Source of the DNA: Alcaligenaceae bacterium
Lineage (GTDB): Bacteria > Pseudomonadota > Gammaproteobacteria > Burkholderiales > Burkholderiaceae_B
DNA length: 64,000 nt
Assembly (NCBI GenBank): GCA_013416395.1
Contig: JACCEP010000003.1
Coordinates: 372,001-436,000 of the forward strand
Direction of reading: 5' to 3'
The translations under genes were made by a program, and so were the position numbers. The notes beneath the pieces are model-generated. The model saw only the letters and a program-made list of their open reading frames with translations. It ran no database searches and was not told where the DNA came from. Shown in pieces: positions 6,047 to 53,814 of this stretch. Positions within the stretch are counted from its first letter, which is position 1. Every line of letters starts with the position of its first letter.

Positions 6047-6072
6047 CGTATCCTCCTTGACGTTAACCACTG

Positions 6073-6750: not shown

Positions 6751-7354
6751 GATGAAGCCTCCTGTGGCACGTCCATGTTACTGCCAGGATGATCTGCAGC
6801 TTGAATTTGGCCACTAAACCAGGTTTGCGAAAACACCAGTGTTCGACTGTGTAGCACCGACGTGCAGCCATGCTTTACAGCCATCTGGCAATGCAAAAAA
6901 GTGATGCTGTCGCGAACTGCCGTAACCGACCTTCATACGATGGACGCTCAAACCATTAGTAGCAAGTTGTGCACGCTATGTCTGTCCGCCAACGCACATT
7001 CAAAGTAACTGCGCCACATACCTGGACAGCGGAGTCCGTCGAGCTTTGTCACTAAGCGGATTAGCCGCGACACCGCATCACTGTGGCACTAACCCGATCA
7101 GCCGCGATCCCGCATAACTGTGTTGCCAACCTGCCCCGCCGCAATCTCGCATAACGGCGTCGCCAACCTGCACAGCCGCCATCCCGCGTCACCGACACAG
7201 CGCGTCACATGCTCAAGAGCGTCCACGAGATAGGAACCCCGATAAACCTGGCCGTTGTGCACGCTAGCGAACAGACAGCACCGTCTCGATATTTATCATT
7301 GAAACAAAGGCTCGCCCGTCGAGCCGCAGTGTACGTGCACATTTAGGAGGCGGT
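6751..7354. other. Intergenic region between divergent HAD/tal operon and PQQ dehydrogenase
   Basis: There is no convincing gene in these 604 bases. The region must hold the divergent promoters. It contains the four-copy 37-bp repeat listed separately. I could not pick a promoter with confidence. Confidence 0.7.
7061..7208. repeat. Four imperfect tandem copies of a 37-bp unit
   Basis: Units occupy 7061-7097, 7098-7134, 7135-7171 and 7172-7208. The shared core reads roughly AGCCGCGATCCCGCATAAC, followed by a variable half ending in CCAACCTGC in units 2 and 3. The copies are diverged and have no unique spacers between them, so this is not a CRISPR array. No function is known. Confidence 0.75.
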
Positions 7355-9817
7355 ATGACAGCAACACGCATGCGGCAGAATTTTGGTGCCCAGCTTCTTT
7401 TGCTTGGTGCATTGATCGGGTTTGCTGTGTCCATATTCGACTATTTCTGGACCGGCAATGGTATCCACGGTACGGCTGGCGTACTGCTGGTCATCATTAC
7501 CAGCGCAGTGATGCTGATTCTTGGCGGTGCGCTCGCACACTGGCGAACGTCGTCTTCCAGAACGCATGGCATCCTGCTCGTGCTTCTGCTCATTGACATT
7601 CTGGGCACCGCCTTTGCCGCGTATATGCTCGAGGCGTGGTGGGTGCTCGGCGGCGTAACACTCGCCTTGATCGGCTGGCTGGTCGACATCGGCAGTGACG
7701 CCACACCGTCGTCAGTATCAACGTCAGGTCTGACTGTTGCCGCTGTTGCCGTGGGCGCATCGCTGGCGGCATTGCTGTCCGGCTACACACCAGACGCCCA
7801 GAGTGCCGAAAACCCACCAAAGCCAGCCACCGCAATGCACGATGCAAGTTCAACGCATGGCGCAAGTCCAACACAGGATGCAAGCTCAGCACAGGATGCA
7901 AGTTCAACACGTGATGTGAGTTCAATGCATGGTGCAAGTTCAGCGCATGATGCAACGCCCACGCCTACAATCAAGCAGGCAAGTTTCCATTACCACGGCT
8001 GGTACACCTTTAATGGCGATCTGATGGCCCAGAAATTCTCCACCGCAGACCAGATTACGCCAAAAAATGTAGCGCATTTGCAGAAGGTTTGGGAGGTTCA
8101 CACGGGTGACGTGTCCACCGGCAAGGGCAAGACCCCGGCCAGCGACTGGTCGGCAACACCGTTGTTCGTTAACGATACCGTATACGTGGGCACGCCCTTT
8201 TACCGCATCTTCGCGATTGCACCCGACACAGGCAAAGTGAAGTGGACGTTTGACTCCCACTCCGCCCTAAAGGCGTTGACCCAGCCCGACATGAAGTCGC
8301 GCGGTGTTGCGTACTGGCAGGCGGCCGACCCGGTGGCACAGAAAGCCTGCCAGAAAATTGTTTACATGGGCACCATGGAGGCCAAACTCTTTGCAGTTGA
8401 CGCCGGTACCGGCAAGCCGTGCGACAGTTTCGCTGATCACGGTGTGCTCGATATTAACCAGTGGAACACCAGCAACAACAAGTGGCCGCTGTCAATACTG
8501 CAGCCCCCTACCGTATACAAAAACCAGCTATTCATTGGCTGGGCCGGCAAAGACTGGGAGGACTCCGAAGCGCCTCCGGGCACAGTCTTTGCCGTCGATG
8601 CACAAACTGGCAAGCTCAACTGGACTTTCCATGCTATTCCCCCGCAGGTTGCCAAACAGACCGGAACCGCCAACGTCTGGGCCAGTATGTCTGTCGATCC
8701 AGAGCACGACCTTTTATATCTTCCTGTGAGCTCGCCCAGCCCCAACTTTTACGGTGGCAACCGCACCGAGAAACTGCCAATTGCGACCTCGGTCACCGCC
8801 CTCGACACCAACACCGGCAAGGTAGTGTGGAGTCGACAGCTTGTACACCACGATCTCTGGGACTATGACACCGATGCCGCACCGACCCTGGTCGACCTGA
8901 ACAGAGACGGCAAGACGATCCCGGCACTGGTGCAGACCAGCAAGATGGGCTTAATTTTCGCGCTTAACCGCCTGACTGGCGAGCCGGTCTATCCGATTAC
9001 CGAGCGTGCTGTGCCCGCCTCAGACGCGTCCGGCGAGAAGGCCTCACCCACTCAGCCCTACCCTGACGTACTTGCGCCAACCGTCGATCAGTTTCCTGGT
9101 ATCTCTACGTTGGCCGACTGGGCCAGCTTTGGCGAATGCTCCAGAACCTATAAGAAACTTCGCCATGACGGGCTATACACGCCTCCCAGCGTAAAAGGCA
9201 GTCTGGCGTATCCATCAACGGCAGGTGGTATAGAGTGGGGTGGCGGTGCCGTGGATCCACGCAGCAATGTCTACGTCGTTAACAGCTCCGCCGTGGCTCA
9301 GATATATCGGCTAATACCTCGTAAAGAGTATGAGCAAGAGACCAAGGACGGGACGCCTGACGGCTACTATGCGCAGACGGGCGCACCCTATGGCTTCTAC
9401 CTGCACAACTTCGTTAATCGCTGGGGCATGCCATGCTGGAAGCCGCCGTACGGAACATTGTCTGCATATAACCTGGACACCGGAAAGTTGCTCTGGCGCA
9501 AACCCTTTGGTGAAGTACAAAAATGGGGCTTTTATATGCCTGAGTCCTGGGGCTCGGTGACCATCGGCGCACCACTCATCACCAAATCGGGGGTGATCTT
9601 TATTGGCGGTTCTATGGATGCACGGGTACGCGCCATTGACCTCAAATCAGGCGAAGTGCTGTGGAAAGCCCAGGTGGATGCACCGGCCGTTGCCAATCCC
9701 TCTACGTATGTTTACAAGGGCCGGCAATATGTCGTGTTTGTGGCGGGAGGCAATTCCATTCTCAAACCGCAGGTATCGGATCAAATAGCGGCCTATGCCC
9801 TGCCCGACTCAAACTAG
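7355..9817 (+). CDS. gcd: Membrane-bound PQQ-dependent dehydrogenase, glucose/quinate/shikimate family
   Basis: Members oxidise sugars or quinate/shikimate in the periplasm with pyrroloquinoline quinone and pass electrons to ubiquinone. The 820-residue protein (E. coli Gcd is of similar size) has about five N-terminal membrane helices (residues 10-165), then the periplasmic eight-bladed propeller starting near FHYHGWYTFNGD. Repeated W-motif-like blades such as GTVFAVDAQTGKLNWTF are seen, along with GGIEWGGGAVDP near residue 625. AGGAGG lies four bases before the ATG. Between the helices and the propeller sits a Ser/Ala/Asp-rich tandem repeat. The glucose assignment is a family-level guess; quinate or shikimate are alternatives. 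No pqq biosynthesis genes are in the window. Confidence 0.88.
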   Translation: MTATRMRQNFGAQLLLLGALIGFAVSIFDYFWTGNGIHGTAGVLLVIITSAVMLILGGALAHWRTSSSRTHGILLVLLLIDILGTAFAAYMLEAWWVLGGVTLALIGWLVDIGSDATPSSVSTSGLTVAAVAVGASLAALLSGYTPDAQSAENPPKPATAMHDASSTHGASPTQDASSAQDASSTRDVSSMHGASSAHDATPTPTIKQASFHYHGWYTFNGDLMAQKFSTADQITPKNVAHLQKVWEVHTGDVSTGKGKTPASDWSATPLFVNDTVYVGTPFYRIFAIAPDTGKVKWTFDSHSALKALTQPDMKSRGVAYWQAADPVAQKACQKIVYMGTMEAKLFAVDAGTGKPCDSFADHGVLDINQWNTSNNKWPLSILQPPTVYKNQLFIGWAGKDWEDSEAPPGTVFAVDAQTGKLNWTFHAIPPQVAKQTGTANVWASMSVDPEHDLLYLPVSSPSPNFYGGNRTEKLPIATSVTALDTNTGKVVWSRQLVHHDLWDYDTDAAPTLVDLNRDGKTIPALVQTSKMGLIFALNRLTGEPVYPITERAVPASDASGEKASPTQPYPDVLAPTVDQFPGISTLADWASFGECSRTYKKLRHDGLYTPPSVKGSLAYPSTAGGIEWGGGAVDPRSNVYVVNSSAVAQIYRLIPRKEYEQETKDGTPDGYYAQTGAPYGFYLHNFVNRWGMPCWKPPYGTLSAYNLDTGKLLWRKPFGEVQKWGFYMPESWGSVTIGAPLITKSGVIFIGGSMDARVRAIDLKSGEVLWKAQVDAPAVANPSTYVYKGRQYVVFVAGGNSILKPQVSDQIAAYALPDSN
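7838..7963 (+). repeat. Seven in-frame 18-bp repeats inside the PQQ dehydrogenase gene
   Basis: The seven units encode six-residue variants of (H/Q/R)-(D/G)-(A/V)-S-(S/P)-(T/A/M): HDASST, HGASPT, QDASSA, QDASST, RDVSSM, HGASSA, HDATPT. They lie at protein residues about 162-203, between the last membrane helix and the propeller, and would form a flexible periplasmic linker. Copy-number change would keep the frame. Confidence 0.9.
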
Positions 9818-9893
9818 ATGAGGCCAGCTAAGACTCATGCGCCATGTCACCGCCTTGCACACCGCGTCAGCCGTAAGCTGTCGCCTGCAAACG

Positions 9894-10610
9894 TTAACAG
9901 GCGTGTTTTGATAGTAAACGGTCAGACTCGGCCTTTACGACTGCGTAGCACTCACAAACACGTGCTTCAAGCCCAGGGCGATCGAGCACGGTAATCTTGC
10001 CGCGGCTGTAGTGAATTAACCCCATGTGCTGCAGCTTTCCGGCGGCCTTGGTAACGCCTGCTCGGCGTACACCGAGCATATTGGCGATGAGGTCTTGCGT
10101 CATGACCAATTCGTTTGAAGGTAAGCGGTCCAGACTTAACAGCAGCCAGCGACACAGTTGTTGATCTACGGAGTGATGCCGGTTGCACACCGCCGTTTGC
10201 GCCATCTGGGTTAGCAAGGCCTGCGTGTAGCGTAACAATAGACGCTGTAGTGGGCCATCACAACGGAATGCATCGATCAATAGCTGGCTCTTGAGTCGGT
10301 AGGCGTGCCCGGCACTTTGCACAACGGCGCGACTGGTTGTGGTTTCGCCGCCCATGAAAAGCTGAACGCCTACAACACCTTCGTTGCCGACAATCGCGAT
10401 TTCGGCTGAACCACCGTCTTCCATAACGTAAAGCAGAGAAACAATGGCCGTGGTCGGAAAATAAACATGATGCAAGGGGTCACCAGGTTCAGACACGACA
10501 TAACCCAGCGGTAGCGGGACGAGTTCCAGTTGAGGGAGCAGGCTCGCGTAGTTTTCGGCTGGCAGCGCAGCAAGCAGATGGTTCAGACCGGGTTCATTTA
10601 TCGTCGACAT
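9894..10610 (-). CDS. Crp/Fnr-family transcriptional regulator
   Basis: This 238-residue protein has an N-terminal cyclic-nucleotide-type sensor domain (LGYVVSEPGDPLHHVYFP and a GGSAEIAIVGNEGVVG jelly-roll segment) and a C-terminal winged helix with TQDLIANMLGVRRAGVTKAAGKL. The N-terminal cysteine cluster of true Fnr is absent, so it is not an oxygen-sensing [4Fe-4S] Fnr. The ligand is unknown. Downstream of the convergent gcd and upstream of arfB, it has no obvious operon partner. Confidence 0.88.
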   Translation of the reverse strand: MSTINEPGLNHLLAALPAENYASLLPQLELVPLPLGYVVSEPGDPLHHVYFPTTAIVSLLYVMEDGGSAEIAIVGNEGVVGVQLFMGGETTTSRAVVQSAGHAYRLKSQLLIDAFRCDGPLQRLLLRYTQALLTQMAQTAVCNRHHSVDQQLCRWLLLSLDRLPSNELVMTQDLIANMLGVRRAGVTKAAGKLQHMGLIHYSRGKITVLDRPGLEARVCECYAVVKAESDRLLSKHAC

Positions 10611-10752
10611 GTTTAATACGGATTGATCAACAGAGGCCTACATACACAGCAAATGCCGTGCCAACAAGACTACATCGCAAAGTGTAGGCGACTTATCGGA
10701 TTCTGTACGCAATGTATCCGTACGTTACATCAAAGATATTCGTCGATATGTT

Positions 10753-11172
10753 TTATGACAGATCCACAGGCTTGCCGCGCAACCGTTTGACCTCGCCGTG
10801 CGAAATTTTGCGCTGAACACGGCGCCGCTGCGACGCTCTGGTTGGCCGGGTTGGTTTGCGTATGGCGGGTTTGTCCAGCGCAGAACGCACCAACTCGATC
10901 AACCGCTCAATGGCATTAGCACGGTTTTTTTCCTGACTGCGAAATGACTGTGCCTTAATGATGATGACGCCATCTTTGGAAATGCGACGGTCTGACAAAG
11001 CCAGCAAAGCGGCTTTGCTTTCATCATCCAGGCTTGATCGAGCCACATCAAAACGAAGATGAACGGCGCTCGATACTTTGTTAACATTTTGGCCTCCGGC
11101 GCCCTGTGCCCGGATCATGGAAAACTCGATTTCGTTTTCGTCCAGGAAAACAGTGTCACTGACATGAAGCAT
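10753..11172 (-). CDS. arfB: Alternative ribosome-rescue factor ArfB (YaeJ-type peptidyl-tRNA hydrolase)
   Basis: ArfB releases nascent chains from ribosomes stalled on mRNA without a stop codon. The 139-residue protein carries the catalytic GGQ in RAQGAGGQNVNKVSSAVHLR and the basic C-terminal tail (RKPTRPTRASQRRRVQRKIS) that probes the empty mRNA channel. Both are typical of the family and distinguish it from the longer RF1/RF2. The window also encodes SmpB at 59.8 kb, so this genome appears to have both rescue routes. Confidence 0.93.
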   Translation of the reverse strand: MLHVSDTVFLDENEIEFSMIRAQGAGGQNVNKVSSAVHLRFDVARSSLDDESKAALLALSDRRISKDGVIIIKAQSFRSQEKNRANAIERLIELVRSALDKPAIRKPTRPTRASQRRRVQRKISHGEVKRLRGKPVDLS

Positions 11173-11330
11173 GGCTTGCTTTACCCTTTAAACCTTAAAG
11201 ACCGTATCTGGGGATGGCTTGTGCGCAGCGGTCTGTGTTTGCGCTTGGCATTTTGCGTATTGGCGCGCGGTGCACAATGGATAGGCATATTACAATATGC
11301 GACTTTCATTCCTTTACCCAGAGAAAATCA

Positions 11331-11744
11331 GTGAGAAAAATAGTAGGCGGAAAACTTCATGGCATACGCGTTACCGGGGCCGATCTTGAATACCACGGTT
11401 CTATTACGCTCGACCCCGACCACTGCGAAGCAGCTGGTATCTTGCCCATGGAATTCGTCGAAATCTGGAACAAAAACTCGGGTGCCCGGATCAGCACCTA
11501 CGTTATTTACGGCGAACGTGGCTCGCGCTGCTGCATATTAAATGGCGCAGCGGCCCGCACTTGCCAGCGCGGCGATGAGGTCATTATCGCTAATTCAATG
11601 TACATAAGCGAAAACGAGCTTGAAAGCGTCAAGCCTGCAGTGCTCACCTTTAACCCTGACAATTCCATTAACGAGCGTCTGGGCTACAGCGTAGGGCGAG
11701 ACGATCAGGGGCGCCTGAAGTTCGATATCGTCAGGTTTGATTAA
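11331..11744 (+). CDS. panD: Aspartate 1-decarboxylase proenzyme
   Basis: PanD converts aspartate to beta-alanine for pantothenate synthesis. It self-cleaves between Gly and Ser to make a pyruvoyl group; the YHGSITLD segment places this site at Gly23-Ser24 or thereabouts. Other family features are the catalytic lysine in [24 protein letters not shown] and ILNGAAAR. The GTG at 11331 was chosen because translation from it aligns with the family N-terminus; the open frame upstream to 11214 has no family similarity. The ribosome binding site is weak. The C-terminus (about 10 residues ending KFDIVRFD) is slightly longer than in E. coli. Confidence 0.92.
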
Positions 11745-11799
11745 ACCCGCCTCTCTAGGCCACGCTAAAGGAGCACCTCGGGCCCAGCGTTCAGGCTAA

Positions 11800-11913
11800 G
11801 GTCCAGATCTAGGTCCAGGTCGAGGCTCTGGTCCTAGCTCTGATCCTAGCTCTAGTTCAGGTGCAGGTTCTAGTTAGGGTTCTAGTTCAGGTTCTAGTTT
11901 GGCTCCTGGTTTG
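11800..11913. repeat. Degenerate 6-bp repeat tract across the malQ 3' end
   Basis: About 19 consecutive hexamers of the types GGTCCA, GGTTCT, AGTTCA and AGCTCT run from the panD-malQ gap into the last codons of malQ. On the malQ strand the hexamers supply its TAG stop codon and repeat TAG several more times in frame. Confidence 0.8.
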
Positions 11914-14455
11914 AGCCGTGATCCAGTTTCTCACCTGATGAGCCTGTAGATATAGCTGTCGTTGCACGCGCTGAGGCGACGCGCGCGGCAATAGCCCGAC
12001 CTTGCCTGATGCTCTCCAGGCTTTTCTGATTTTCGCTGTCGTCAAAAAGCGTTTCAACCGACTGCGGCAGACGCTGAATCCAGCTCGGGTGACCTTTGCC
12101 TTTAACGCCTGCTACAGTCGATGTGTCTGACTGATTGGGTTGTTCATGCGGCCTGATAGCGCCTGCCATGGTCGATGTTCCCGGCGGACTCGGTTGTTCA
12201 AGTAGTCCGACAGCACCCGCCGCAGTCGATGTCCCCGGCAGATTCGGTTGTTCAAGTAGTCCGATAGCGCCCGCCGCGGTCGATGTGCCTGGAAGATTGG
12301 GTTGTTCAAGTAACCCGAGGATGTCTTCGACGGGAATAATAACCAAAGGGCCGGGCGTGGCTGCCACATACTTCAGAATGGCCTGTCTTGGCGCGCCTGC
12401 ACTGTCGGGTGGCACGTCATTGGTTGGCAATCTGGCCAACAATGCTTTTTTTGTCGCGCTTCGGTCAGTACGCTGCTGATCGGCCTGTTGCGCTGTCACG
12501 TGCGCCAATTGCTCGCGCCAGCGTATATCTCGGGCAGCCCACCAGCCTTCTATCGTCGGCAGATCATGGGTGGTCGTGGTTGCCATGGTCCAGTCAGGCC
12601 AGTTACCTTGCTCCTCAAACCACAACACGCTGGTACCCAGCACGCCTTTTTCTTGTAGATGTGCGTTAAAGTCGGGCGGGACCGTTCCGAGATTTTCGCC
12701 GATCACAATCGCACTGTGCCGCCATGCCTCAAGCACGAGCAATCGGAGCATATCCTGGAATGGGTAGCGAAGGTAAACACCTTCGTGGGCTTGCGCGCCC
12801 TTGGGCACCAACCACATGCGCGCCAGGCCCATAATATGATCCATGCGTATGCCCCCGGCATGACGCAAATTAGCGCGCAAGGTTTCAATAAACCCCATAT
12901 AGCCATTGCGCTGCAAAGCATGCGGCGAAAACGCAGTAATACCCCAGCTCTGGCCTTGCGGCTGAAACACATCCGGCGGCGCCCCCACTGATACGTCATG
13001 CAGGATCTCGCGCTGCCGACTCCAGGCGTGGCTGCCTCGCGCGTCGGTGCCAATGGCAAGGTCGGTAATCAGGCCTACTGACATGCCACTGCCGCGTGCG
13101 GCGGCCTGTGCTGCAGCCAGCCCTTGGTCAGCAAGCCATTGCAGAAAGCAATGAAAATCGACGTCGTTACGGTGCTCAGCTGCAAAACGCTGCGCCGCCG
13201 CGCCTTCCGGATCGTGCAGCGCTGCAGGCCAGTCTTGCCAGCCGCTTTCCGGGCCAAGAGTTTGGCAATAGATCGCTGACAGCGCCTCATAGCGCGCATG
13301 GCTTTCAAGCGCTTCACCCCCCTCTGCGCAAAATTGGCGAAAATCGCGGGCCGGCGCGTGGTCACTGCTTTGGTCAAACCGATCAAAGCATTGCCGCAGT
13401 AAGGCCAGATGAGCATGCATGTACACAGGCCAGTTTATGGTGTCAATGTCGCCTTTCGCCAAGTCTTGCATCTGGCCGCCCAGTGCGGGCGCAGTCGAGT
13501 CTGTATGCCCGACGTGGCTGTCCGAGCGAGTGGCAAGCCCTACGCGTGTGGCGCTTTCGGCCGCTTTATTCATTCCGAGCGCTGCGGCATCAGGCCCATC
13601 TATGAATGATGGGTCGGCGTAAGCCACGTTCAAAAACAGGCGACTTGATGGTGAGTACGGGCTGTAGCGCTCCGGCGCGGCAGTAAACAGCGCATGCACT
13701 GGACTGATCGCTACGGCGCTTGCCCCTGTATGCCCCGCCCGCGTGACAAAGTCCGCCAGCACAGAAAAATCACCGACACGGTTACCGGATTTTTGCCCCC
13801 GCAAGCTGTACACCTGTGCCGCGATGCCCCAGGCCAGTGTCCGTGCGCCGTTGCTGTTGCTGGTGATCTGGCTGTTGCCGTTGTCGCGGCTGTTGTCGTT
13901 GCTGCTGGTGAGCTTGCTGTTGCTGTTGTCTGTGCTGGTGCCGCAGCTGGTGCCGTTGCTGATGCCCGTACCGATAACTGTGCTTGTGCCTGCACCTGTG
14001 CTGGGCAGCGGTGCAGGACATCGCAAAGGGCATACAGCAAGCGCGATGCAGCAATCGCCTATGTAAAGATGGTGATAACCTGGCTCGTAAATGGGAGCAA
14101 TACGGGCTACGCCGGGTTCCCGCCATGTTGTTGCGCCGTCAATGCGCAGACCTGATTCAAGTACCAATTGGCTGTTGATATTGCCTCGCCAGGGAAAATC
14201 CAGTATTTGTCCGACATCAATAACCCACAATCTACCAGCTGCGCTGATGAGCTCTGGCGCACCGGCCGCCAACACCCGGCGGTGGCTGTCTTGAATCTGC
14301 GCGGGTGTGGCGCACGGGAACCCCAATGCGACAAGCAAACTGCGTAAACTGTCGTCGCTGACCTCTTGCGTCTGACTAAATACATCTTGCCAAACGGGTA
14401 CCAGACCTGCAGCAACCGCCAGCGTCCGCAATGGATTGTTTGCCTGCCTTGTCAT
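11894..14455 (-). CDS. malQ: 4-alpha-glucanotransferase (amylomaltase) with repeat expansions
   Basis: MalQ disproportionates maltodextrins and releases glucose. The 853-residue protein is about 150 residues longer than E. coli MalQ. GH77 motifs are clear: GIRMDHIMGLARMW (nucleophile Asp), SAIVIGENLGTVPPDF (acid/base Glu) and TTTHDLPTIEGWW. The extra length comes from a Ser/Thr/Asn-rich insert near residues 155-205 and a four-fold tandem repeat at residues 714-784 inside the conserved C-terminal motif. Its ATG directly follows the glgX stop (TGAATG), so it is the last gene of the glgE-treS-glgB-glgX-malQ operon. Whether the inserts impair activity is unknown; the catalytic residues are intact. 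Confidence 0.93.
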   Translation of the reverse strand: MTRQANNPLRTLAVAAGLVPVWQDVFSQTQEVSDDSLRSLLVALGFPCATPAQIQDSHRRVLAAGAPELISAAGRLWVIDVGQILDFPWRGNINSQLVLESGLRIDGATTWREPGVARIAPIYEPGYHHLYIGDCCIALAVCPLRCPAPLPSTGAGTSTVIGTGISNGTSCGTSTDNSNSKLTSSNDNSRDNGNSQITSNSNGARTLAWGIAAQVYSLRGQKSGNRVGDFSVLADFVTRAGHTGASAVAISPVHALFTAAPERYSPYSPSSRLFLNVAYADPSFIDGPDAAALGMNKAAESATRVGLATRSDSHVGHTDSTAPALGGQMQDLAKGDIDTINWPVYMHAHLALLRQCFDRFDQSSDHAPARDFRQFCAEGGEALESHARYEALSAIYCQTLGPESGWQDWPAALHDPEGAAAQRFAAEHRNDVDFHCFLQWLADQGLAAAQAAARGSGMSVGLITDLAIGTDARGSHAWSRQREILHDVSVGAPPDVFQPQGQSWGITAFSPHALQRNGYMGFIETLRANLRHAGGIRMDHIMGLARMWLVPKGAQAHEGVYLRYPFQDMLRLLVLEAWRHSAIVIGENLGTVPPDFNAHLQEKGVLGTSVLWFEEQGNWPDWTMATTTTHDLPTIEGWWAARDIRWREQLAHVTAQQADQQRTDRSATKKALLARLPTNDVPPDSAGAPRQAILKYVAATPGPLVIIPVEDILGLLEQPNLPGTSTAAGAIGLLEQPNLPGTSTAAGAVGLLEQPSPPGTSTMAGAIRPHEQPNQSDTSTVAGVKGKGHPSWIQRLPQSVETLFDDSENQKSLESIRQGRAIAARVASARATTAISTGSSGEKLDHGSNQEPN
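12104..12316 (-). repeat. Four in-frame ~54-bp repeats in malQ
   Basis: Three 18-residue units and one 17-residue unit encode variants of GLLEQPNLPGTSTAAGAI. The third and fourth are more diverged (GLLEQPSPPGT, RPHEQPNQSDT). The canonical MalQ C-terminus has a single GLxEQxNxPGT followed by xHPNWRRRL; here the HPSWIQRL continuation comes only after the fourth copy. Confidence 0.93.
13840..13993 (-). repeat. 6-bp-periodic low-complexity tract in malQ
   Basis: A run of GTTGCT/GTTGTC-like hexamers on the plus strand encodes a Ser/Thr/Asn/Gly-rich stretch (for example NSNSKLTSSNDNSRDNGNS) at about residues 155-205 of MalQ. It lies before the SLRGQKSGNRVGDF motif that begins the conserved barrel. 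Confidence 0.8.
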
Positions 14456-46081: not shown

Positions 46082-46147
46082 TATCGGTATCGGTATCGGT
46101 ATCGGTATCGGTATCGGTATCGGTATCGGTATCGGTATCGGTATCGG
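46082..46147. repeat. (TATCGG)11 hexanucleotide repeat
   Basis: Eleven uninterrupted copies of TATCGG. As a multiple of three it would not shift any frame. Confidence 0.97.
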
Positions 46148-46173
46148 CAAGATTAAAAACGACAAGAGCCAGG

Positions 46174-46200
46174 AACAACAACAACAACAACAACAACAAC
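46174..46200. repeat. (AAC)9 trinucleotide repeat
   Basis: Nine perfect AAC copies, 26 bases after the hexamer tract. Confidence 0.97.
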
Positions 46201-46274
46201 AAACAGCAATTGGCAATCGGTAAACAAAAGCCAGATGCTAGATGCCCCAAACCAGAAATTCGGAATCAGAAATC

Positions 46275-46308
46275 AGATACCAGATACCAGATACCAGATA
46301 CCAGATAC
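46275..46308. repeat. (AGATACC)4 heptanucleotide repeat plus partial copy
   Basis: Four perfect copies of AGATACC (46275-46302) followed by AGATAC, preceded by related AGAAATC and GGAATC sequence. It marks the border of the AT-rich island. Confidence 0.93.
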
Positions 46309-46516: not shown

Positions 46517-47287
46517 TTATCTCTTTATCTTATTGAATAACCTAAAGAAATTATCAGTTGTAGCCTGACCTACCTCTGCAGCCGATATACCGCGCAAATC
46601 AGCTATTTTTTCGGCAACATGCATCACCTTGGATGGATCGTTAAGCTTGCCTCGGTGCGGCACAGGTGCCAGATACGGTGAGTCGGTTTCAATCAACAAC
46701 CGGTCCAGCGGCATCTTGCGTGCCAGCTGCTGCAGATCTTCTGCCTTCTTGAACGTAACAATGCCCGACAGCGAAATATAAAAATTAAGATCCATGGCTG
46801 CCTGAGCAACTTCCCACGACTCGGTAAAGCAGTGCATTACCCCGCCCACTTTGTCAGCCCCCTCTTCCTTCATGATGCGTAGCGTGTCTTCACTGGCCGA
46901 CCGGGTGTGAATAATAATCGGCAGCCCGCTCTCACGGCTGGCGCGGATATGGGTACGAAAACGTTCGCGCTGCCACTCAAGTGGCTCTTCAAGGCGAAAA
47001 TAATCAAGCCCGGTTTCACCCAGTGCAGCCACCTTGTCAGACTGCCCCAGCTCAACCAGTTGAGCTACCGTAGGCTCAGGGGTGTCTTGGTAGTCAGGAT
47101 GGACGCCTACCGACGCATAAAGATGATCATGCGGCTCGACCAAAGCCATCAAACCTGGCCAATCAGGCATGCACACGCTGACGACCAGCGCATGGCTAAC
47201 CTGATTTTGCGCCATGCGCTGCAAAATCTCGGGCAAATTAGCTGCAAGTTCAGGAAAATTAAGATGACAATGAGAATCTACGTACAT
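46517..47287 (-). CDS. tatD: TatD-family metal-dependent hydrolase (YcfH type)
   Basis: This 256-residue TIM-barrel hydrolase has the metal ligands YVDSHCHLNFPEL (N-terminus), GETGLDYFRLEEP, IIIHTRSASEDT, GVMHCFTESWE and LIETDSPYLAPVPHRG. The family includes 3'-5' DNA exonucleases and D-aminoacyl-tRNA deacylases. It follows holB after 79 nt, the usual Burkholderiales order. Confidence 0.95.
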   Translation of the reverse strand: MYVDSHCHLNFPELAANLPEILQRMAQNQVSHALVVSVCMPDWPGLMALVEPHDHLYASVGVHPDYQDTPEPTVAQLVELGQSDKVAALGETGLDYFRLEEPLEWQRERFRTHIRASRESGLPIIIHTRSASEDTLRIMKEEGADKVGGVMHCFTESWEVAQAAMDLNFYISLSGIVTFKKAEDLQQLARKMPLDRLLIETDSPYLAPVPHRGKLNDPSKVMHVAEKIADLRGISAAEVGQATTDNFFRLFNKIKR

Positions 47288-47366: not shown

Positions 47367-48416
47367 TTAAGCCTGCGGTGCGCACGCAAGCGCCGCCCGT
47401 TGCAGAGCGCTATGCACAAATAGCTTGGCGTTGAGCGGGTGGCCGGCTACGGCGCGCTGCTGATTCAACCATTTGGCCGTATCGGCCAGGTTGGCGCGGG
47501 AGGCCCGGTCGGCAATACGCACCGTCTGCTTGCTAATGGCCGGGTAGTATCGAACCGAGGCCTGCGACGCCGCCAGCAACAGATCAAGAAACAGCCGCTG
47601 CAGCGCGTCAATCCAGACCTCAGGCGAGGTTTTTTCGAGCTGATCGGCCAACGGCCCGATATCGGCGGTTGGCCCCGACATAACTGCCGCCATAAAATCT
47701 TGCAGCCAAGCCGGACAAGGGCTACCACCCGCCTCGGCCATGGCCTGCGCCAGCAGTGGCGCCCCTCCTGCCGCAGCCAGCCAATCAGAAGCCTGGTCAA
47801 CCCCCTGTTGTTTCAGCCAATTTAAACTCTCCTGCGGGCCCGGCACGGGCAGTGGTAAGCGTCGGCAGCGTGAAACCAGGGTTGGAAGCAGGCGGTCTGG
47901 GGCATCGGCCACCAGCAGAAACACGGTATGAGCCGGAGGCTCTTCGAGCACCTTTAACAGTGCATTAGCGGTAATCTGGTTCATGGCTCTGGCCGGGTAT
48001 ATAACTGCGACCCGCCATCCGCCGCGATGCGTGGCGGTATTAAACCACCCGCCTAGTGCTCGCAATTGATCAACACGGATTTCTTTAGAAGGTGCCTTTT
48101 TAGTGGCCCCCGTCTGCGCGCTTTCTGCGTCATTAAGACCCGCCCCCTCTTCAAAGGCCACGGCGTCGGGACGAATGCGACGCAGATCAGGGTGATTACC
48201 ATGCGCCAACCACTGGCAGGCCACACAATGACCACAGGCCAGGCCCTGCGTCGGCGACTCGCACAGCAAGCTACCCGCAGCAGCCAGCGCAAACTGCCGC
48301 TTGCCAATGCCAGGCAGCCCGTGAATCAGCCAGGCGTGGGCGAAACGCTCGCGCTGCGATAACCATTGTCGTGCAGGGGCTTCATGCCAGGGCAGAAAAG
48401 ACACAAGATCACTCAT
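47367..48416 (-). CDS. holB: DNA polymerase III subunit delta'
   Basis: HolB is the clamp-loader delta' subunit. The 349-residue protein has an AAA+ fold: LIHGLPGIGKRQFALA (Walker A region), the zinc-binding cysteines LLCESPTQGLACGHCVAC, and the SRC motif in LPTLVSRCRRLPLP. ATG 48416 gives MSDLVSFLPWHEAP, typical of the family. In ancestral order tmk precedes it directly, with the ATG overlapping the tmk stop; here a 3.7-kb island separates them, so holB now needs another promoter. Confidence 0.94.
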   Translation of the reverse strand: MSDLVSFLPWHEAPARQWLSQRERFAHAWLIHGLPGIGKRQFALAAAGSLLCESPTQGLACGHCVACQWLAHGNHPDLRRIRPDAVAFEEGAGLNDAESAQTGATKKAPSKEIRVDQLRALGGWFNTATHRGGWRVAVIYPARAMNQITANALLKVLEEPPAHTVFLLVADAPDRLLPTLVSRCRRLPLPVPGPQESLNWLKQQGVDQASDWLAAAGGAPLLAQAMAEAGGSPCPAWLQDFMAAVMSGPTADIGPLADQLEKTSPEVWIDALQRLFLDLLLAASQASVRYYPAISKQTVRIADRASRANLADTAKWLNQQRAVAGHPLNAKLFVHSALQRAALACAPQA

Positions 48417-48430
48417 GGTGTATCGCCTTC
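48391..48430. repeat. Left direct repeat of the tmk-holB island (holB side)
   Basis: 40-bp repeat matching 52126-52165 at 35 of 40 positions. On the minus strand it reads the end of tmk (GAAGGCGATACACC) directly into the first codons of holB (ATGAGTGATCTTGTG). This copy has the functional holB start. Confidence 0.9.
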
Positions 48431-48746
48431 TTGCACGAATCGACCGACAAGCCAGGACACATAGTTGCATTCACCCGCGCCATGCTTTTGTTTAGCTTTC
48501 AATGTAAACCACTGAGAACTTAAATTGGTGAGTGTGGATAGATTAGCAAGAACTCTACTCAACAAAGAGCTCTTCACTTCAAATTTCATTATGCCTACGC
48601 ACATATTCACAGCTAATCGCCTGAAAAACACAAACCCTAAACTGGACCGCCGAAGCTTCTTGGGCATTGTAAACGTAATGAAACCCGTTCTCTGGCCAAT
48701 AGCGACTTGATGCAGCCGCCTCTATGTAAACCGCATGAAAGAGTCA

Positions 48747-48923
48747 TCAATTGGCCAACATGCATGCTTTATGCTGACGATCACTAAGCGACCGCTCGAC
48801 TATGTCTGCGAAAAATGCGCCAATCGCCTCACGAGGTGGCAACATATCGCAATGCTGGGTTCGCTGTGCAACACTGCAATTGACATAGTGCCCGAGTGCT
48901 CCTTGATAAAGCGCGCACTTTTC
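48747..48923 (-). pseudogene. TetR/AcrR-family regulator remnant
   Basis: The minus-strand translation contains ALYQGALGHYVN and, further on, LPPREAIGAFFADIVERSL followed by ACMLAN, the pattern of the TetR C-terminal region just after the DNA-binding domain (family: PPREAIxAFFxxIVERSL ... GCLLVN). The helix-turn-helix part is missing at the start, where yghU begins on the other strand, and a stop follows ACMLAN. It is a truncated fragment at both ends. Confidence 0.6.
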
Positions 48924-48982
48924 CCATCCGACTATCCTCCTGTCGCTTGAGGCAGGCACAGGCATTTATGGAGAATGAAAGC

Positions 48983-49846
48983 ATGACGGATTCCACCGAA
49001 TACACACCACCAAGCGTCTGGACCTGGAACAAACCCAACGGGGGCACCTTTGCGAGCGTCAATCGGCCGATCGCAGGGCCTACCCACGACAAGGCGCTGC
49101 CAGTCGGACGCCACCCGCTGCAGCTCTATTCGCTCGCCACGCCCAACGGCCAGAAAGTCACGATCATGCTGGAAGAGCTGCTGGCTCTCGGGCACACGGG
49201 TGCCGAATACGACGCGTGGCTTATCCGTATCCGCGACGGTGACCAGTTCGGCAGCGGCTTTGTCGACGTTAACCCAAATTCCAAGATCCCCGCCTTAATG
49301 GACCACTCGGGCCCAGAACCTGTGCGGGTGTTCGAGTCCGGTGCCATTCTCGTCTATCTTGCCGAGAAATTTGGCGCCCTGATACCGACGGCGCACCCCG
49401 GGCGCGCCGAATGCCTGTCCTGGCTGTTCTGGCAGATGGGCAGCGCACCTTATCTGGGCGGCGGCTTCGGCCACTTCTATACCTATGCGCCAGTCAAGAT
49501 CGAATACGCTATCGATCGATATGCGATGGAGGTCAAGCGCCAGCTCGACGTGTTGGATCGCCGCTTGGCCGAAAGCGAGTACCTGGGCGGTAGCGACTAC
49601 ACCATAGCAGACATCGCGGTATTTCCCTGGTACGGGGGTTTGGCCAAAGGCTGGCAATACGGCGCGGCCGAATTTCTATCGGTACAGGACTACACGAACG
49701 TACAGCGATGGGCCGACACGATTCTGGCGCGACCCGCAGTGGCCCGCGGGCGCATGGTCAACCGCGTATCCGGCGATCCTGCCAAGCAGTTGCACGAGCG
49801 CCATGACGCCAACGACTTCGACACAAAAACACAAGACAAACTTTAG
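48983..49846 (+). CDS. yghU: Glutathione-dependent disulfide-bond oxidoreductase YghU
   Basis: YghU is a Nu-class glutathione transferase with disulfide reductase activity. The 287-residue protein closely follows E. coli YghU: VWTWNKPNGGTFASVNRP, PVGRHPLQLYSLATPNGQKV, NPNSKIPALMDH, FESGAILVYLAEKFGALIP, and a C-terminus ending QLHERHDANDFDTKTQDKL. ATG 48983 (MTDSTEYTPPSVW) with GGAG upstream matches the family better than ATG 48968. It is the second YfcG/YghU-type enzyme in the window. Confidence 0.95.
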   Translation: MTDSTEYTPPSVWTWNKPNGGTFASVNRPIAGPTHDKALPVGRHPLQLYSLATPNGQKVTIMLEELLALGHTGAEYDAWLIRIRDGDQFGSGFVDVNPNSKIPALMDHSGPEPVRVFESGAILVYLAEKFGALIPTAHPGRAECLSWLFWQMGSAPYLGGGFGHFYTYAPVKIEYAIDRYAMEVKRQLDVLDRRLAESEYLGGSDYTIADIAVFPWYGGLAKGWQYGAAEFLSVQDYTNVQRWADTILARPAVARGRMVNRVSGDPAKQLHERHDANDFDTKTQDKL

Positions 49847-49856
49847 AATGTCAGTC

Positions 49857-49910
49857 ATGAACATCAGCAGCAAACGTATCCTGATCACGGCAGGGGTCCA
49901 TCGAAGATAG
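49857..49910 (+). pseudogene. Short-chain dehydrogenase N-terminal remnant
   Basis: Codons 1-13 read MNISSKRILITAG, the start of an SDR Rossmann fold (family: MNIxGKxILITGG). The frame then ends after four more codons at TAG 49908. The remaining gene is absent. It lies 10 bases after yghU. Confidence 0.5.
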
Positions 49911-49923
49911 GTGGAGTTCTGCC

Positions 49924-51045
49924 ATGACAAGCTGCGTAACCGTACCCGTAAACATTCACCCACCGAGAAGGCACATGCAGGTTTCAGAGTTACCGGCACC
50001 TGATCAGACAATAAGTCGTTCTCTGGCGCAGGCGCTGCTGGCCAGTAAATCCGACTATACCGGCTGTCGTTTGGAGGTAATGCCCGACAAAGGTCTGGCT
50101 CACCAGCATGTGCGCATCGTTGGTACGGGTGTGATCGCACGCATCCCCAAGCAAAGCCAGTTGAGCCTCTGCGCACAGGACAACCTGCGCTACCAAGCGG
50201 CCGCATTCAGACGCGCTTCGCGCGGCGGCCATGCGCCAAAGCTGATCGATATTCTGCTGCCAAGCCCATCGCTACCGCGCGGGGCGTTGCTGGTCGAGGA
50301 AATTATCGGAACCACGCCTTGCCTGCCCGCCGATCTCGGTGCCATTAGCCGCGCCATGGCCAGTTTTCATGCCCTGCCGCTGCCTATTGAGGCCCAACGT
50401 GCGCCACTACGGCACTCAATCGATCCTTTGAAGGATATGCTCGATGAAATCAGTCAGCAGGCGGCATTTCTGGATCAGGCGTGCCTCTCACCCACCAGTC
50501 TTAGGGAAATACGTCAGGGGCTAAAAAACCTGGCGCAGCGATGCGATGCGCGTGCCCGGCCACCCAGGCGTCTGATTTCGTTTGACACGCATCCCGGTAA
50601 CTTTCTAATGACACCCAACCATCTAGCCATTCTGGTGGATCTGGAAAAGGCACGCTATAGCTATCCCTCGTTTGATCTCGCACACGCCACGCTATATACG
50701 TCGACAACCTGGGATACCGAGACCTATGCCGAACTGACCCATGAGCACGTACTATCGGCCTACACCGCCTGGGAAGACGCCATGGATGCCGCCACGGCTC
50801 AGGCCACGCGCGGCTGGCATGGCCCCCTGCGTCTGGCTATGTGGCTGTGGTCTATTACCTGGTGCGCCAAATGGCGCCTGCTCTCGCAGCGCAAATCCGC
50901 CGAGTCAGCCACCGAAGACTGGTCTTATGAACTGAGCTCAGAATCCTTAATCAGCCATGTACGCGGACGCGTCGATCACTATCTCAGTGCAGAAATCGTG
51001 CACCAGGTATGGGCTGAATGCCAGACGCTGGAGCGGGAATTATGA
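49924..51045 (+). CDS. Aminoglycoside-phosphotransferase-fold protein
   Basis: This 373-residue protein belongs to the APH/choline-kinase-like superfamily. It has the N-lobe (GVIARIPKQSQL), the catalytic loop region LISFDTHPGNFLMTPN and the metal Asp in LAILVDLEKARYSYPSFDLAH. The catalytic loop has SFD in place of the usual HGD, with the Asp and Asn kept. The substrate is unknown; resistance is not implied. ATG 49924 has GGAG seven bases upstream; ATG 49975 is an alternative. It is encoded in the tmk-holB island. Confidence 0.8.
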   Translation: MTSCVTVPVNIHPPRRHMQVSELPAPDQTISRSLAQALLASKSDYTGCRLEVMPDKGLAHQHVRIVGTGVIARIPKQSQLSLCAQDNLRYQAAAFRRASRGGHAPKLIDILLPSPSLPRGALLVEEIIGTTPCLPADLGAISRAMASFHALPLPIEAQRAPLRHSIDPLKDMLDEISQQAAFLDQACLSPTSLREIRQGLKNLAQRCDARARPPRRLISFDTHPGNFLMTPNHLAILVDLEKARYSYPSFDLAHATLYTSTTWDTETYAELTHEHVLSAYTAWEDAMDAATAQATRGWHGPLRLAMWLWSITWCAKWRLLSQRKSAESATEDWSYELSSESLISHVRGRVDHYLSAEIVHQVWAECQTLEREL

Positions 51046-51169
51046 AATGCTAAACACTACCAAGTCAGACTATTCCACCTATCCTGGTAACTCATAGCCG
51101 TGCAGACGTGCTTGATACGAACCTGTTGATCGAGCGGTAGAAACACGTCTTCCCTGAAACTCTGGACCT

Positions 51170-51838
51170 TCAACGGGAACCACCACTCGATCGTCTTCGC
51201 CGCCAGTGCGCCACAATGAACCAGCCTACCAGCAGACAGAGCGATATCACCAACGACACCCACAGGGGCAGCGCCATCACGCGGTCCCCCGCCGAGGCAA
51301 GCAAGATGGTCAATGGCAAAATGCCCAGACCCGTGGTCCAGAGAAAGGTCCACCATGACACCTCAGTGAGCGCAGCAGCATAATTGATCAGATTAAAGGC
51401 AATCATCGGAATAAAGCGACTCAGGAGTAAGGCAACAGCTCCCTTATCACGTGACCAATGCTCCAACACCTGTTGGTGTCGGATAGACACAAAACGTCTA
51501 ATAAAGGGTCGCCCCAACGAACGCACCACCCAAAACGCCAGGGATGCACCAATCATGGCACCCGCCCACGTTACGACCGTACCCCAAAGGGGGCCGTAAA
51601 CCATGCCATTAGCGAGTGCAATGACCTCAGCGGGGAACGGCAAAAATGAATGCACGGCCATCAGTGCCATAGAGGCCAGAACACCCCATACTCCCCATGA
51701 CCTGATCAGCGACACCGCCGTATCCACTGAGCCGTCAAACACCGCCAGAGGCTCACCAGACTGCACGCCCCAGAAAAAAACGCCTCCGATTGCCGACAGG
51801 ACGATCAACACACCTACGAAAATTGTAAGCAGCCTCAT
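51170..51838 (-). CDS. TVP38/TMEM64-family membrane protein (DedA/VTT fold)
   Basis: This 222-residue protein has about five hydrophobic segments and the VTT/SNARE-associated domain pattern: FLPFPAEVIALANGMVYGPLWG, GAMIGASLAFWVVRSLGRPF and LLSRFIPMIAFNLINYAAAL. It ends in a basic tail (HWRRRRSSGGSR). The family is linked to lipid scrambling or transport in membranes; its precise role here is unknown. It faces the APH-fold gene within the island. Confidence 0.88.
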   Translation of the reverse strand: MRLLTIFVGVLIVLSAIGGVFFWGVQSGEPLAVFDGSVDTAVSLIRSWGVWGVLASMALMAVHSFLPFPAEVIALANGMVYGPLWGTVVTWAGAMIGASLAFWVVRSLGRPFIRRFVSIRHQQVLEHWSRDKGAVALLLSRFIPMIAFNLINYAAALTEVSWWTFLWTTGLGILPLTILLASAGDRVMALPLWVSLVISLCLLVGWFIVAHWRRRRSSGGSR

Positions 51839-52125
51839 CTAATGTCCCTGCGTACTGTAACAAGTGGCGCGTCCACGTAAGCAGCCTATCCAGTCAGCTT
51901 TATTTCTTTCAACTTAAAAGAAGGATGGTTCGATCTTACGCCTTAGTGAGTGCAGTTTCCGCCCTCTGATGATGAAGGCCCTAAAGAGGCGTTACCCCTC
52001 AAAGGCGGGTTTTTCCTCGCTGGCTTCGAGGACGCCGCTACGCTGACTGTGTAACGTGAAGATTGCTGCGGCATCTGAGCGCAATGCAGTTTTAACTATT
52101 TCGTGCCGAGAACCGATCGATGAAG
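51839..52125. other. Right flank of the island, no clear gene
   Basis: These 287 bases separate the TVP38 gene from the right repeat. A minus-strand stretch at about 52003-52110 reads protein-like (RHEIVKTALRSDAAAIF, ending EEKPAFEG then TAA) but I do not recognise it. It may be another gene remnant. Confidence 0.4.
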
Positions 52126-52165
52126 GGCAGAAATAGCACAAGCTCACTCAGGGTGTATCGCCTTC
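52126..52165. repeat. Right direct repeat of the tmk-holB island (tmk side)
   Basis: This copy contains the real tmk stop and, after it, a decayed holB start: CTG replaces ATG and translation would read LSELVLFLPF before diverging, compared with MSDLVSFLPW in the intact gene. Confidence 0.9.
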
Positions 52166-52807
52166 AATGTCGCGATCATAACGGCTTATGAGCGCATCAA
52201 CCTCTGCAGCGAGGCGCGACCTAACCACTTCGATAGGAAGCGTCGAATCAACCAGATGAAAACGATGCGGCTGCTGCTGCACACGTTGATGATAAGCTTG
52301 ACGCGTGCGCTGGAAGAAGGCTTCGCCTTCCTGCTCAAACCGATCAAGCTGGCGGCTGCGTGCAAGGCGTTCGCGGGCAACCTCAAGGGGCACATCAAAC
52401 AGCCAGGTACGGTCGGGCTGAATACCTGGTATGGCCCATTGCTCAAGCGCATGAACAGCAGACTCACCCAACTGCCGCCCCCCCCCCTGATAAGCATAAC
52501 TGGCGTCGGTAAAACGGTCGCAAACTACCCATTGCCCGGCTTCGAGTGCCGGCAAGATGACTGAATTTACATGCTCGCAGCGAGCCGCAAACATAAGCAG
52601 GGTTTCTGTTTTCAGATGCATGCTGGTTTCCAGCAGTATCTGGCGCAACTGCTCGCCTAGCGGAGTACCGCCTGGCTCGCGGGTGCAGAGCACGGGCAAG
52701 CCTCTGGCCTTTAATTGATCTACGAGCCAGGGCACATGAGTGCTTTTACCGGCCCCATCCAGGCCTTCGAGGGAAATAAAACAGCCTCGCGGGGTGTGCG
52801 TAGTCAT
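52148..52807 (-). CDS. tmk: Thymidylate kinase
   Basis: Tmk phosphorylates dTMP to dTDP for DNA synthesis. The 219-residue protein has the P-loop SLEGLDGAGKSTHVPWL, CTREPGGTPLGE and the DR(Y/F) motif CDRFTDASYAYQGGGRQL. Its start overlaps the mltG stop by one base. The C-terminus IEGDTP ends in the repeat that also lies at the holB start. Confidence 0.97.
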   Translation of the reverse strand: MTTHTPRGCFISLEGLDGAGKSTHVPWLVDQLKARGLPVLCTREPGGTPLGEQLRQILLETSMHLKTETLLMFAARCEHVNSVILPALEAGQWVVCDRFTDASYAYQGGGRQLGESAVHALEQWAIPGIQPDRTWLFDVPLEVARERLARSRQLDRFEQEGEAFFQRTRQAYHQRVQQQPHRFHLVDSTLPIEVVRSRLAAEVDALISRYDRDIEGDTP

Positions 52808-53814
52808 TATTTTTGTCCAAGAATGTACTTGGCAACAGCACGGTTGTGCGAGGCTAGATTGCTTGAAAACTCGCTGGTGCCGTCACCTCGTGACACAAAA
52901 TACAGAAAATTGTGGGATTCAGGGTGAAGCACGGCGGCCAGCGCCGCGCGCCCGGGGCTGGCAATAGGCGTTGGCGGCAAACCGGCACGCGTATAGGTGT
53001 TCCAGGGGGTATCCGTAGTAAGGTCTTTTTTGCGAATACGGCCCTGGTAGGCATCGCCCATGCCGTAGATGACAGTGGGGTCAGTTTGCAGCGGCATGCC
53101 CAGCCGCAAACGGTTGATGAATACCCCGGCAACGCGCCGGCGATCTTGCTCGTGCCCGGTTTCTTTCTCCACAATCGAAGCCAGCACTAGTGCCTCATAC
53201 GGGGAAGTGAGCGGCAGCTTGGGATCGCGCTCGGCCCACAGGGTTGTTAGCATGGTTTCCTGAGCCTCGTAGGCCCGGCGCAGTATTTCAAAGTCAGACG
53301 AGCCCGGAACAAACACATACGTGTCAGGGTAAAACAGCCCCTCGGGTGCCTGCTGCTCGGCGCCCAGTTGCTTAAGCAATTGCTGATCAGTGACGCCTTC
53401 AAGGGTTTGCTTGACTTGAGGAGCCTCACGCAACGCCTGCCGTATACGCTGGTATGTCCAGCCTTCAACCAGGGTGAGCCTGGCCTGCGTCATGTCGCCG
53501 TTAACCATGCGTTCGAGCAGGCGGCGCGGTGAATCACCATGCAAGGCTTCATAGGCGCCAGCCTGAATTTGCTTGTCGAGGCCGCTGAGGCGCGCTAGCA
53601 GCACGAAACCTTCTTCATTGACATCAATACCCGATTTGAGCATAAGCCTGGCAACGGCGCGAGGACTGGCACCCGGAGCAACAATGTAGTCAATGCGCTC
53701 TTGTTGCATGGTAACGGGGCTTGTTGACCAGTACCAGGCTGCAGCACTGACCGCTGCAGCAAGTAACGCCAGCAGAAGCAGCGGGTAGAGAATCAGATTT
53801 TTGATTTGTTTCAT
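52807..53814 (-). CDS. mltG: Endolytic transglycosylase MltG (YceG)
   Basis: MltG cleaves nascent peptidoglycan strands at the inner membrane. The 335-residue protein has one N-terminal membrane helix (NLILYPLLLLALLAAAVSA), a LysM-like region (IVAPGASPRAVARLML) and the YceG catalytic segment with Glu in VLASIVEKETGHEQDRRRV followed by GMPLQTDPTVIYG. It is the first gene of the mltG-tmk unit. Confidence 0.95.
   Translation of the reverse strand: MKQIKNLILYPLLLLALLAAAVSAAAWYWSTSPVTMQQERIDYIVAPGASPRAVARLMLKSGIDVNEEGFVLLARLSGLDKQIQAGAYEALHGDSPRRLLERMVNGDMTQARLTLVEGWTYQRIRQALREAPQVKQTLEGVTDQQLLKQLGAEQQAPEGLFYPDTYVFVPGSSDFEILRRAYEAQETMLTTLWAERDPKLPLTSPYEALVLASIVEKETGHEQDRRRVAGVFINRLRLGMPLQTDPTVIYGMGDAYQGRIRKKDLTTDTPWNTYTRAGLPPTPIASPGRAALAAVLHPESHNFLYFVSRGDGTSEFSSNLASHNRAVAKYILGQK

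Follow-up and report, generated by a model that had tools for sequence, protein, structure and literature searches.

The window analysed here comprises 64,000 nt of contig JACCEP010000003.1 from an Alcaligenaceae bacterium (positions 372,001 to 436,000), in which a 3.7-kb segment separates tmk from holB. This segment is very probably what erosion has left of the right part of an integrative island whose landing site is formed by the Walker A codons (GGNGCN) of tmk. The window holds an island right end with a motif spaced 21 nt from the break, a tmk relic that starts at Walker A, and cargo. The segment contains neither a spare kinase nor a recombinase, and is thus a remnant rather than an intact member of the tmk-landing islands.

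The segment is flanked by a 42-nt direct repeat, whose two copies (Table 1) are identical at 37/42 positions and lie 3735 nt apart from start to start. When 200 base-shuffled windows were scanned on one strand, the best match to the repeat 42-mer never exceeded 27 identities; the identity of the copies is far above chance. Each copy consists of the last tmk codons followed by the first 28 nt of holB. In the holB-side copy, the only one with a start codon, the ATG overlaps the TGA (ATGA), whereas the tmk-side copy carries CTG in place of the ATG, retains the tmk stop codon TGA and can be read as LSELVLFLPF after this stop. The preliminary description of this DNA had reported such a duplicated tmk/holB junction, with a working start on the holB side and a dead one on the tmk side, and both statements agree with the sequence. 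However, the repeat, then delimited as 40 bp, makes up only part of the scar: immediately upstream of its holB-side copy there is also what remains of a second tmk. The copies are 28/42 and 27/42 identical to the junction of the sister species (G004). Since both are closer to each other than to G004, the donor of the junction would have been this species or a very close one.

The tmk relic is broken at the Walker A codons and jumps from the Walker A stretch to the last five codons of tmk. Its front part is identical to the intact tmk at 26 of 36 nt; apart from itself, it has no better match on either strand of the window, the runner-up reaching 22. A leader precedes the relic. Among the 268 family genomes searched, this leader, used as a protein query, matched two: the genome of the window itself (G000) and G169 (45% identity as protein). 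In G169 this leader again meets tmk at these Walker A codons, but the native tmk beyond them is otherwise long and is followed by holB. Reading from mltG, the order in G169 is a 17-codon native tmk start cut at GGCGCG/TTATT..., the left end of the island and a complete foreign tmk, then a recombinase-like open reading frame (ORF), efflux-like cargo, the leader, GGCGCG, the 3′ part of the native tmk and holB. The foreign tmk of G169 groups with those of two other genomes, G021 and G023; the three are 61-65% identical to one another and 35-41% identical to the native type. The window shares with tmk-landing islands of the Pseudomonas putida KT2440 kind an end that abuts a broken native tmk next to holB, in the form of the leader and the Walker A relic.

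Islands with a foreign tmk in other genomes

A scan of the species-genome collection for foreign tmk genes with two short peptide patterns, which is not exhaustive, yielded 72 loci. holB lies within 600 nt of the foreign tmk in 56 of them, farther away in 6 and in the other orientation in 1; the fetched stretch holds no holB in the remaining 9. Many of the 56 holB-adjacent loci belong to Alteromonadales, where this tmk may simply be the native gene. In a gammaproteobacterial metagenome-assembled genome (L082, 1008-5353), the foreign tmk is inverted between holB and mltG.

The left side was inspected at ten of these loci, namely the nine without holB and that of G169 (L078). At seven of the ten, the native tmk start is cut at Walker A: Herminiimonas, Gallionella, Polarisedimenticolaceae, Colwellia, Glaciecola, Pseudoalteromonas denitrificans and G169. 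In Rheinheimera soli (L112/L166) the foreign tmk stands behind a second tmk site, cut near residue 98, and the two tmk halves are on different contigs. No native tmk fragment was found on the left side of L083 and L086. Displaced 3′ pieces of the native tmk were detected in five of the ten genomes searched for them (those of nine of the ten left-side loci, plus L114); four of the pieces begin at Walker A and one at the second site.

The Colwellia island lies on one contig and measures 27.8 kb from core to core (attL core at 26611, attR core at 54435). The operon that follows its foreign tmk encodes a 663-aa protein without Pfam match, 681-aa and 431-aa Phage_integrase proteins, and a 329-aa protein with a helix-turn-helix match below the cut-off. 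Of 398 genomes drawn from the phylum, a single one had the 681-aa recombinase. The recombinase-like ORF of G169, as read from the sequence, is homologous to the 663-aa Colwellia protein, which is encoded beside a Phage_integrase gene. It belongs to no Pfam or PHROG family and had no match in plasmids or in 399 genomes drawn from the order, the latter search being without a positive control. Homologues are present in 5 of the 72 foreign-tmk loci, G169 included, and weakly in Rheinheimera (L171).

An operon related to that of Colwellia was also found in G732 (L168, C10, ~4490-14309), where it stands behind a foreign HD-domain gene. The native gene start at this locus, which we take to be that of a yfbR-like gene, is truncated after HDATEVITGD and followed by the foreign HD-domain gene. 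The G732 operon proteins are 26-38% identical to those of Colwellia over their alignable parts, and a 145-aa protein and what by eye is a RecD-like helicase are also common to the two loci.

The ends of these islands carry a common signature. The motif TGTAAAC is located exactly 21 nt inside the break: of 13 Walker A ends, 10 have it without mismatch and 12 if one mismatch is tolerated, for a background in the window of 0.001 per position per strand. As these ends belong to 8 islands, they are not 13 independent cases; L112/L166, with its second tmk site, and L083 and L086, with no native tmk fragment, are left out of the count. The motif was first noticed in G169 and the window, and nine of the ten ends examined later fit it with at most one mismatch. 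The island right end in the window shows the break at GGNGCN and an exact TGTAAAC 21 nt inside. The 64 kb hold six exact copies of GTTTACA/TGTAAAC, three of which (GTTTACA at 48503, 48668 and 48725) fall in this end, and it is the copy nearest the tmk break that lies exactly 21 nt from it. None of the six is at the tmk side of the segment.

We tentatively propose, as one possible generalization, a class of islands that land in the conserved catalytic codons of a housekeeping gene and carry, ahead of their recombinase operon, a foreign spare of that same gene. Its examples would be tmk Walker A (seven genomes of different genera and the window), the second tmk site (Rheinheimera L112) and the yfbR-like gene of G732. 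If so, each landing would, in a single event, replace an essential or core enzyme by a foreign allele. A foreign tmk between mltG and holB, as in some Alcaligenaceae, would then be a domesticated outcome, and the window the reverse one, in which the genome has its own tmk again and still bears the scar. On the reading of the segment as a remnant of a tmk-landing island, an odd duplication becomes the readable fossil of an island living inside an essential gene, a route is suggested by which such a gene can be exchanged for a foreign one without a lethal interruption, and the genome of the window appears to have recovered its native gene. The end signature (break at GGNGCN, TGTAAAC 21 nt inside) provides a testable means of finding and bounding such islands.

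The tmk-holB locus in the family and the history of the segment

The tmk-holB locus was fetched from 30 of a set of 61 family genomes. A native-type tmk (59-89% identical) stands beside holB in 24 of them. The other six comprise two loci with a foreign tmk, two with a deoxynucleoside monophosphate (dNMP) kinase, one with an insert of ~15.5 kb (G019) and the window. The suspicion that the site is a recurring hot spot is borne out by these six deviating loci, and the empty site expected in a relative was found in the sister species G004, where the tmk stop codon overlaps the holB ATG. Other cargo between the same 42-bp repeats was seen at none of the loci fetched, no dedicated search having been made. 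The 42-bp junction itself was considered as the hot spot and rejected because of G019 (L150, C1:102000-121500; also L032), which has its ~15.5 kb between native tmk and holB without a duplicated junction. ORFs of this insert resemble Ku, LigD, GalU and glycosyltransferases (named by eye).

At the two dNMP kinase loci (G005, G027) the kinase belongs to PF21448 and is in the opposite orientation; neither genome gave a tmk match at E <= 1e-8. This is in line with the naming of Alcaligenes faecalis and Parapusillimonas granuli as such cases in a report on Pseudomonas putida (PMC10653934). The dNMP kinase that takes the place of tmk in G027 (L031, 2690-4887) adjoins an OrfB_IS605-type gene. A dNMP-kinase-like match is also present on another contig of the window's own genome (G000:C22:411869-412429).

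The fuller members of the tmk-landing islands split tmk and put their own foreign tmk (xtmk) directly behind the break, where it should keep the host alive. The best-preserved member adds a tyrosine-recombinase operon and cargo, and the right end abuts the displaced 3′ part of the native tmk, followed by holB. In the lineage of the window, such an island may once have split tmk. Its left end, xtmk and recombinases would have been lost when DNA of an empty-site relative, from mltG through tmk to the start of holB, recombined in, by homologous exchange via mltG and an illegitimate end after 28 nt (nine codons) of holB. This exchange would have restored the native tmk and left the dead holB start as a tail, and the displaced tmk 3′ part would have been reduced to roughly 12 codons at its front and 5 at its end. 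The opposite course, in which island DNA entered an empty-site cell through holB homology, fits equally well.

Several points weigh against an eroded tmk-landing island. No island left end (truncated native tmk start followed by a foreign tmk), spare kinase or recombinase was found in the window. The tmk relic is short and decayed, and the leader match is moderate (70% as DNA, 45% as protein) and to a single genome. The tail of the relic is 14/14 identical to the intact tmk while its front is 26/36, a pattern that is hard to reconcile with any single event. Along the locus, identity to G004 is without a step that would mark imported DNA (mltG 84.5%, tmk 82.3%, holB 80.8%, tatD 85.6%), and recombination breakpoints sought by sliding identity to G004 gave no clear result. 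The last 60 nt of tmk drop to 57% identity with G004, either by import or as a fast-changing tail. In addition, one of the 13 ends (L084) is off by one base and its motif ends in T, and the breaks were set by alignment to the Gly-Ala codons of Walker A, on which the 21-nt spacing depends. Finally, the path by which the native tmk returned is inferred, as is its loss from this lineage in the first place.

An alternative would be that the island itself brought a native-type tmk with the start of holB, so that integration at Walker A rebuilt a full-length tmk that is now mostly island DNA. In one step this would explain why tmk is intact, why it is trailed by the start of holB and why no left scar is seen, and the likeness of the two junction copies, each far less similar to that of G004, would place the source of the island in the same or a very close species. 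Identity to G004 cannot decide here because only ~50 nt of tmk precede Walker A. However, in the seven Walker A left ends the spare kinase has a foreign ORF of its own that follows a truncated piece of the native gene, and no fetched member rebuilds tmk. We consider an island-borne native-type tmk unlikely.

The preliminary description had offered two explanations of its own. A simple tandem duplication of the tmk-holB junction, with the inner part then replaced by accessory genes, agrees with the close identity of the two copies and with their similar divergence from G004, but it does not predict the leader, the GTTTACA motifs or the Walker A tmk break common to the window and G169; it is very unlikely. 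More improbable still is a target-duplicating transposon, or an integrase for which the 42-bp junction served as attachment site. The direct repeats flank the segment as expected in that case, but the copies differ at 5 of 42 positions, no transposase or integrase was found among the five insert ORFs scanned, the insert of G019 is free of such repeats and the break of the related islands is at Walker A. On the holB side, the flank corresponds to the right end of an island whose target is Walker A rather than the tmk/holB junction. An assembly error joining distant segments, in favour of which one could cite the kinase gene that lies elsewhere in G004, is hardly credible for a segment that sits inside a 640-kb contig, is matched once in its genome and has an end structure found in islands of other assemblies. 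An eroded tmk-landing island thus accounts best for the segment.

Genes and remnants of the window

The features of the locus are collected in Table 1. The tmk of the window is intact, overlaps the end of mltG, is 89% identical in amino acid sequence to that of G004 and is the sole tmk match in its genome at E <= 1e-8. A Pfam scan of the five ORFs of the insert returned GST, APH and VTT families and two ORFs without match, and no integrase, transposase, tmk or recombinase. Likewise, no recombinase was detected in the insert by tblastn with 15 recombinase-module proteins from related islands (E up to 0.1); the sole match, of 22 aa (E 0.019), is inside the kinase gene. The earlier statement that the insert lacks an integrase or transposase is upheld by both searches.

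Table 1. Features of the mltG-tatD interval of the window, in order of position.
Feature	Position	Strand	Remarks
tatD, downstream neighbour	46517..47287	-	ORF; syntenic in relatives
holB, DNA polymerase III delta prime subunit	47367..48416	-	Pfam PF13177
holB-side junction copy	48389..48430	-	Last five tmk codons of the relic and working holB start (ATGA)
tmk relic from Walker A onward	48446..48481	-	GAGECNYVSWLV against GAGKSTHVPWLV in intact tmk
Probable tmk-landing island right end	48482..48760	-	Inner limit approximate; 48474-48685 is a 70% DNA match to L063 of G169
TetR-like regulator remnant (named by eye)	48751..48923	-	78-81% DNA match to L060, L058
Glutathione-dependent disulfide-bond oxidoreductase, GST family, presumably YghU type	48983..49846	+	NCBIfam NF008731, 519 bits (cut-off 325)
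APH-family phosphotransferase gene	49975..51045	+	Pfam PF01636
Remnant resembling ABC-transporter ATPase C-terminus (named by eye)	51064..51141	+	78% DNA match to L062:3371-3294
VTT/DedA-like membrane protein gene	51170..51838	-	Pfam PF09335, E 1.8e-31
Decayed fragment, presumably RadC-like (HEIVKTALRSDAAAI...)	52015..52106	-	80% DNA match to G235 (L059)
tmk-side junction copy	52124..52165	-	Last tmk codons, TGA, 28 nt of dead holB start (CTG...)
Intact native-type tmk, 219 aa	52148..52807	-	Pfam PF02223
mltG, upstream neighbour of the tmk operon	52807..53814	-	ORF; syntenic in relatives

The cargo has its relatives at other places. In the whole-insert search of the 268 family genomes, the matches listed were to pieces at other loci only. 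The APH-family kinase gene is 92% identical as DNA to a gene of G004 at a different locus (C57). The 12-kb surroundings of that gene match G000 in scattered pieces only, so the insert looks like patchwork cargo rather than one conserved block. The counterpart of the ABC ATPase remnant in L062 is ~3.4 kb downstream of the kinase homologue there; an internal deletion would have joined the remnant to the kinase gene at 51063/51064. In the relatives that match the TetR-like remnant (L060, L058), the regulator adjoins the GST gene. The name YghU is one that we assume for the oxidoreductase, and that of RadC was presumed from a motif rather than from a family search. The preliminary description also had holB cut off from its operon promoter, a loss that the data do not demonstrate: a sigma-70-type scan of 48380-49000 gave 0 sites against a shuffle mean of 0.8, which discriminates neither way.

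Outside the segment, in the space that separates tatD from a gene that by eye is ankyrin-like, (TATCGG)11, (AAC)9.7 and (CAGATAC)5 form a row of three distinct perfect microsatellites within 230 nt (46082-46308).

Relation to known islands

Among the papers listed by searches of the open-licence PMC literature for tmk islands with recombinases, the only one on point is that on Pseudomonas putida KT2440 (PMC10653934). According to its available part, a 65-kb island splits tmk next to holB and the island's own kinase takes over: tmk is cut after 294 bp, and its place is taken by a dNMP kinase of phage type, whose gene comes last in the island. The same source describes stand-alone tmk replacements between mltG and holB in other species, including Alcaligenaceae. 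The islands described here resemble that of P. putida, as far as it is covered there, in the split tmk, in its replacement by an island kinase and in their tyrosine recombinases, and the Rheinheimera cut near residue 98 is close to its 294-bp site. They differ from it in the foreign tmk behind a Walker A break, and the window differs in having a native-type tmk and no replacement. No description of foreign-tmk islands was found in the part of PMC10653934 available.

The GInts, as described in the accessible part of PMC5385486, are likewise site-specific islands. They have three proteins of the tyrosine-recombinase type, their direct repeats are imperfect, their distal end is short and AT-rich, and their cargo varies. 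They carry a ginABCD operon, of which all four genes are needed for movement, and the sites named there are an ABC-transporter gene, ssb and a ribonucleotide reductase gene, once called 'duplicated'. The Colwellia module (663, 681, 329 and 431 aa) looks different in order, on a comparison by description only, and no ginABCD-type gene was found in the insert of the window. The terms 'tmk' and 'thymidylate' have 0 occurrences in the GInt text (PMC5385486).

A further published class of elements, from the portion of its description at hand, likewise has two catalytic tyrosine recombinases and a third related protein without the catalytic motif, together with terminal inverted repeats. Its text contains neither 'tmk' nor 'thymidylate', and its core genes were compared by description only. 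Gamma-Mobile-Trio islands are defined by three proteins. They are mentioned in PMC12039261 as mobile islands with cargo.

A tmk-splitting island that sustains its host by its own kinase is thus already published (PMC10653934). Relative to the literature examined, the Walker A target, the foreign tmk as the spare and the 21-nt end signature are new, as are the likely extension to yfbR in G732 and the native-type tmk beside a scar in the window.

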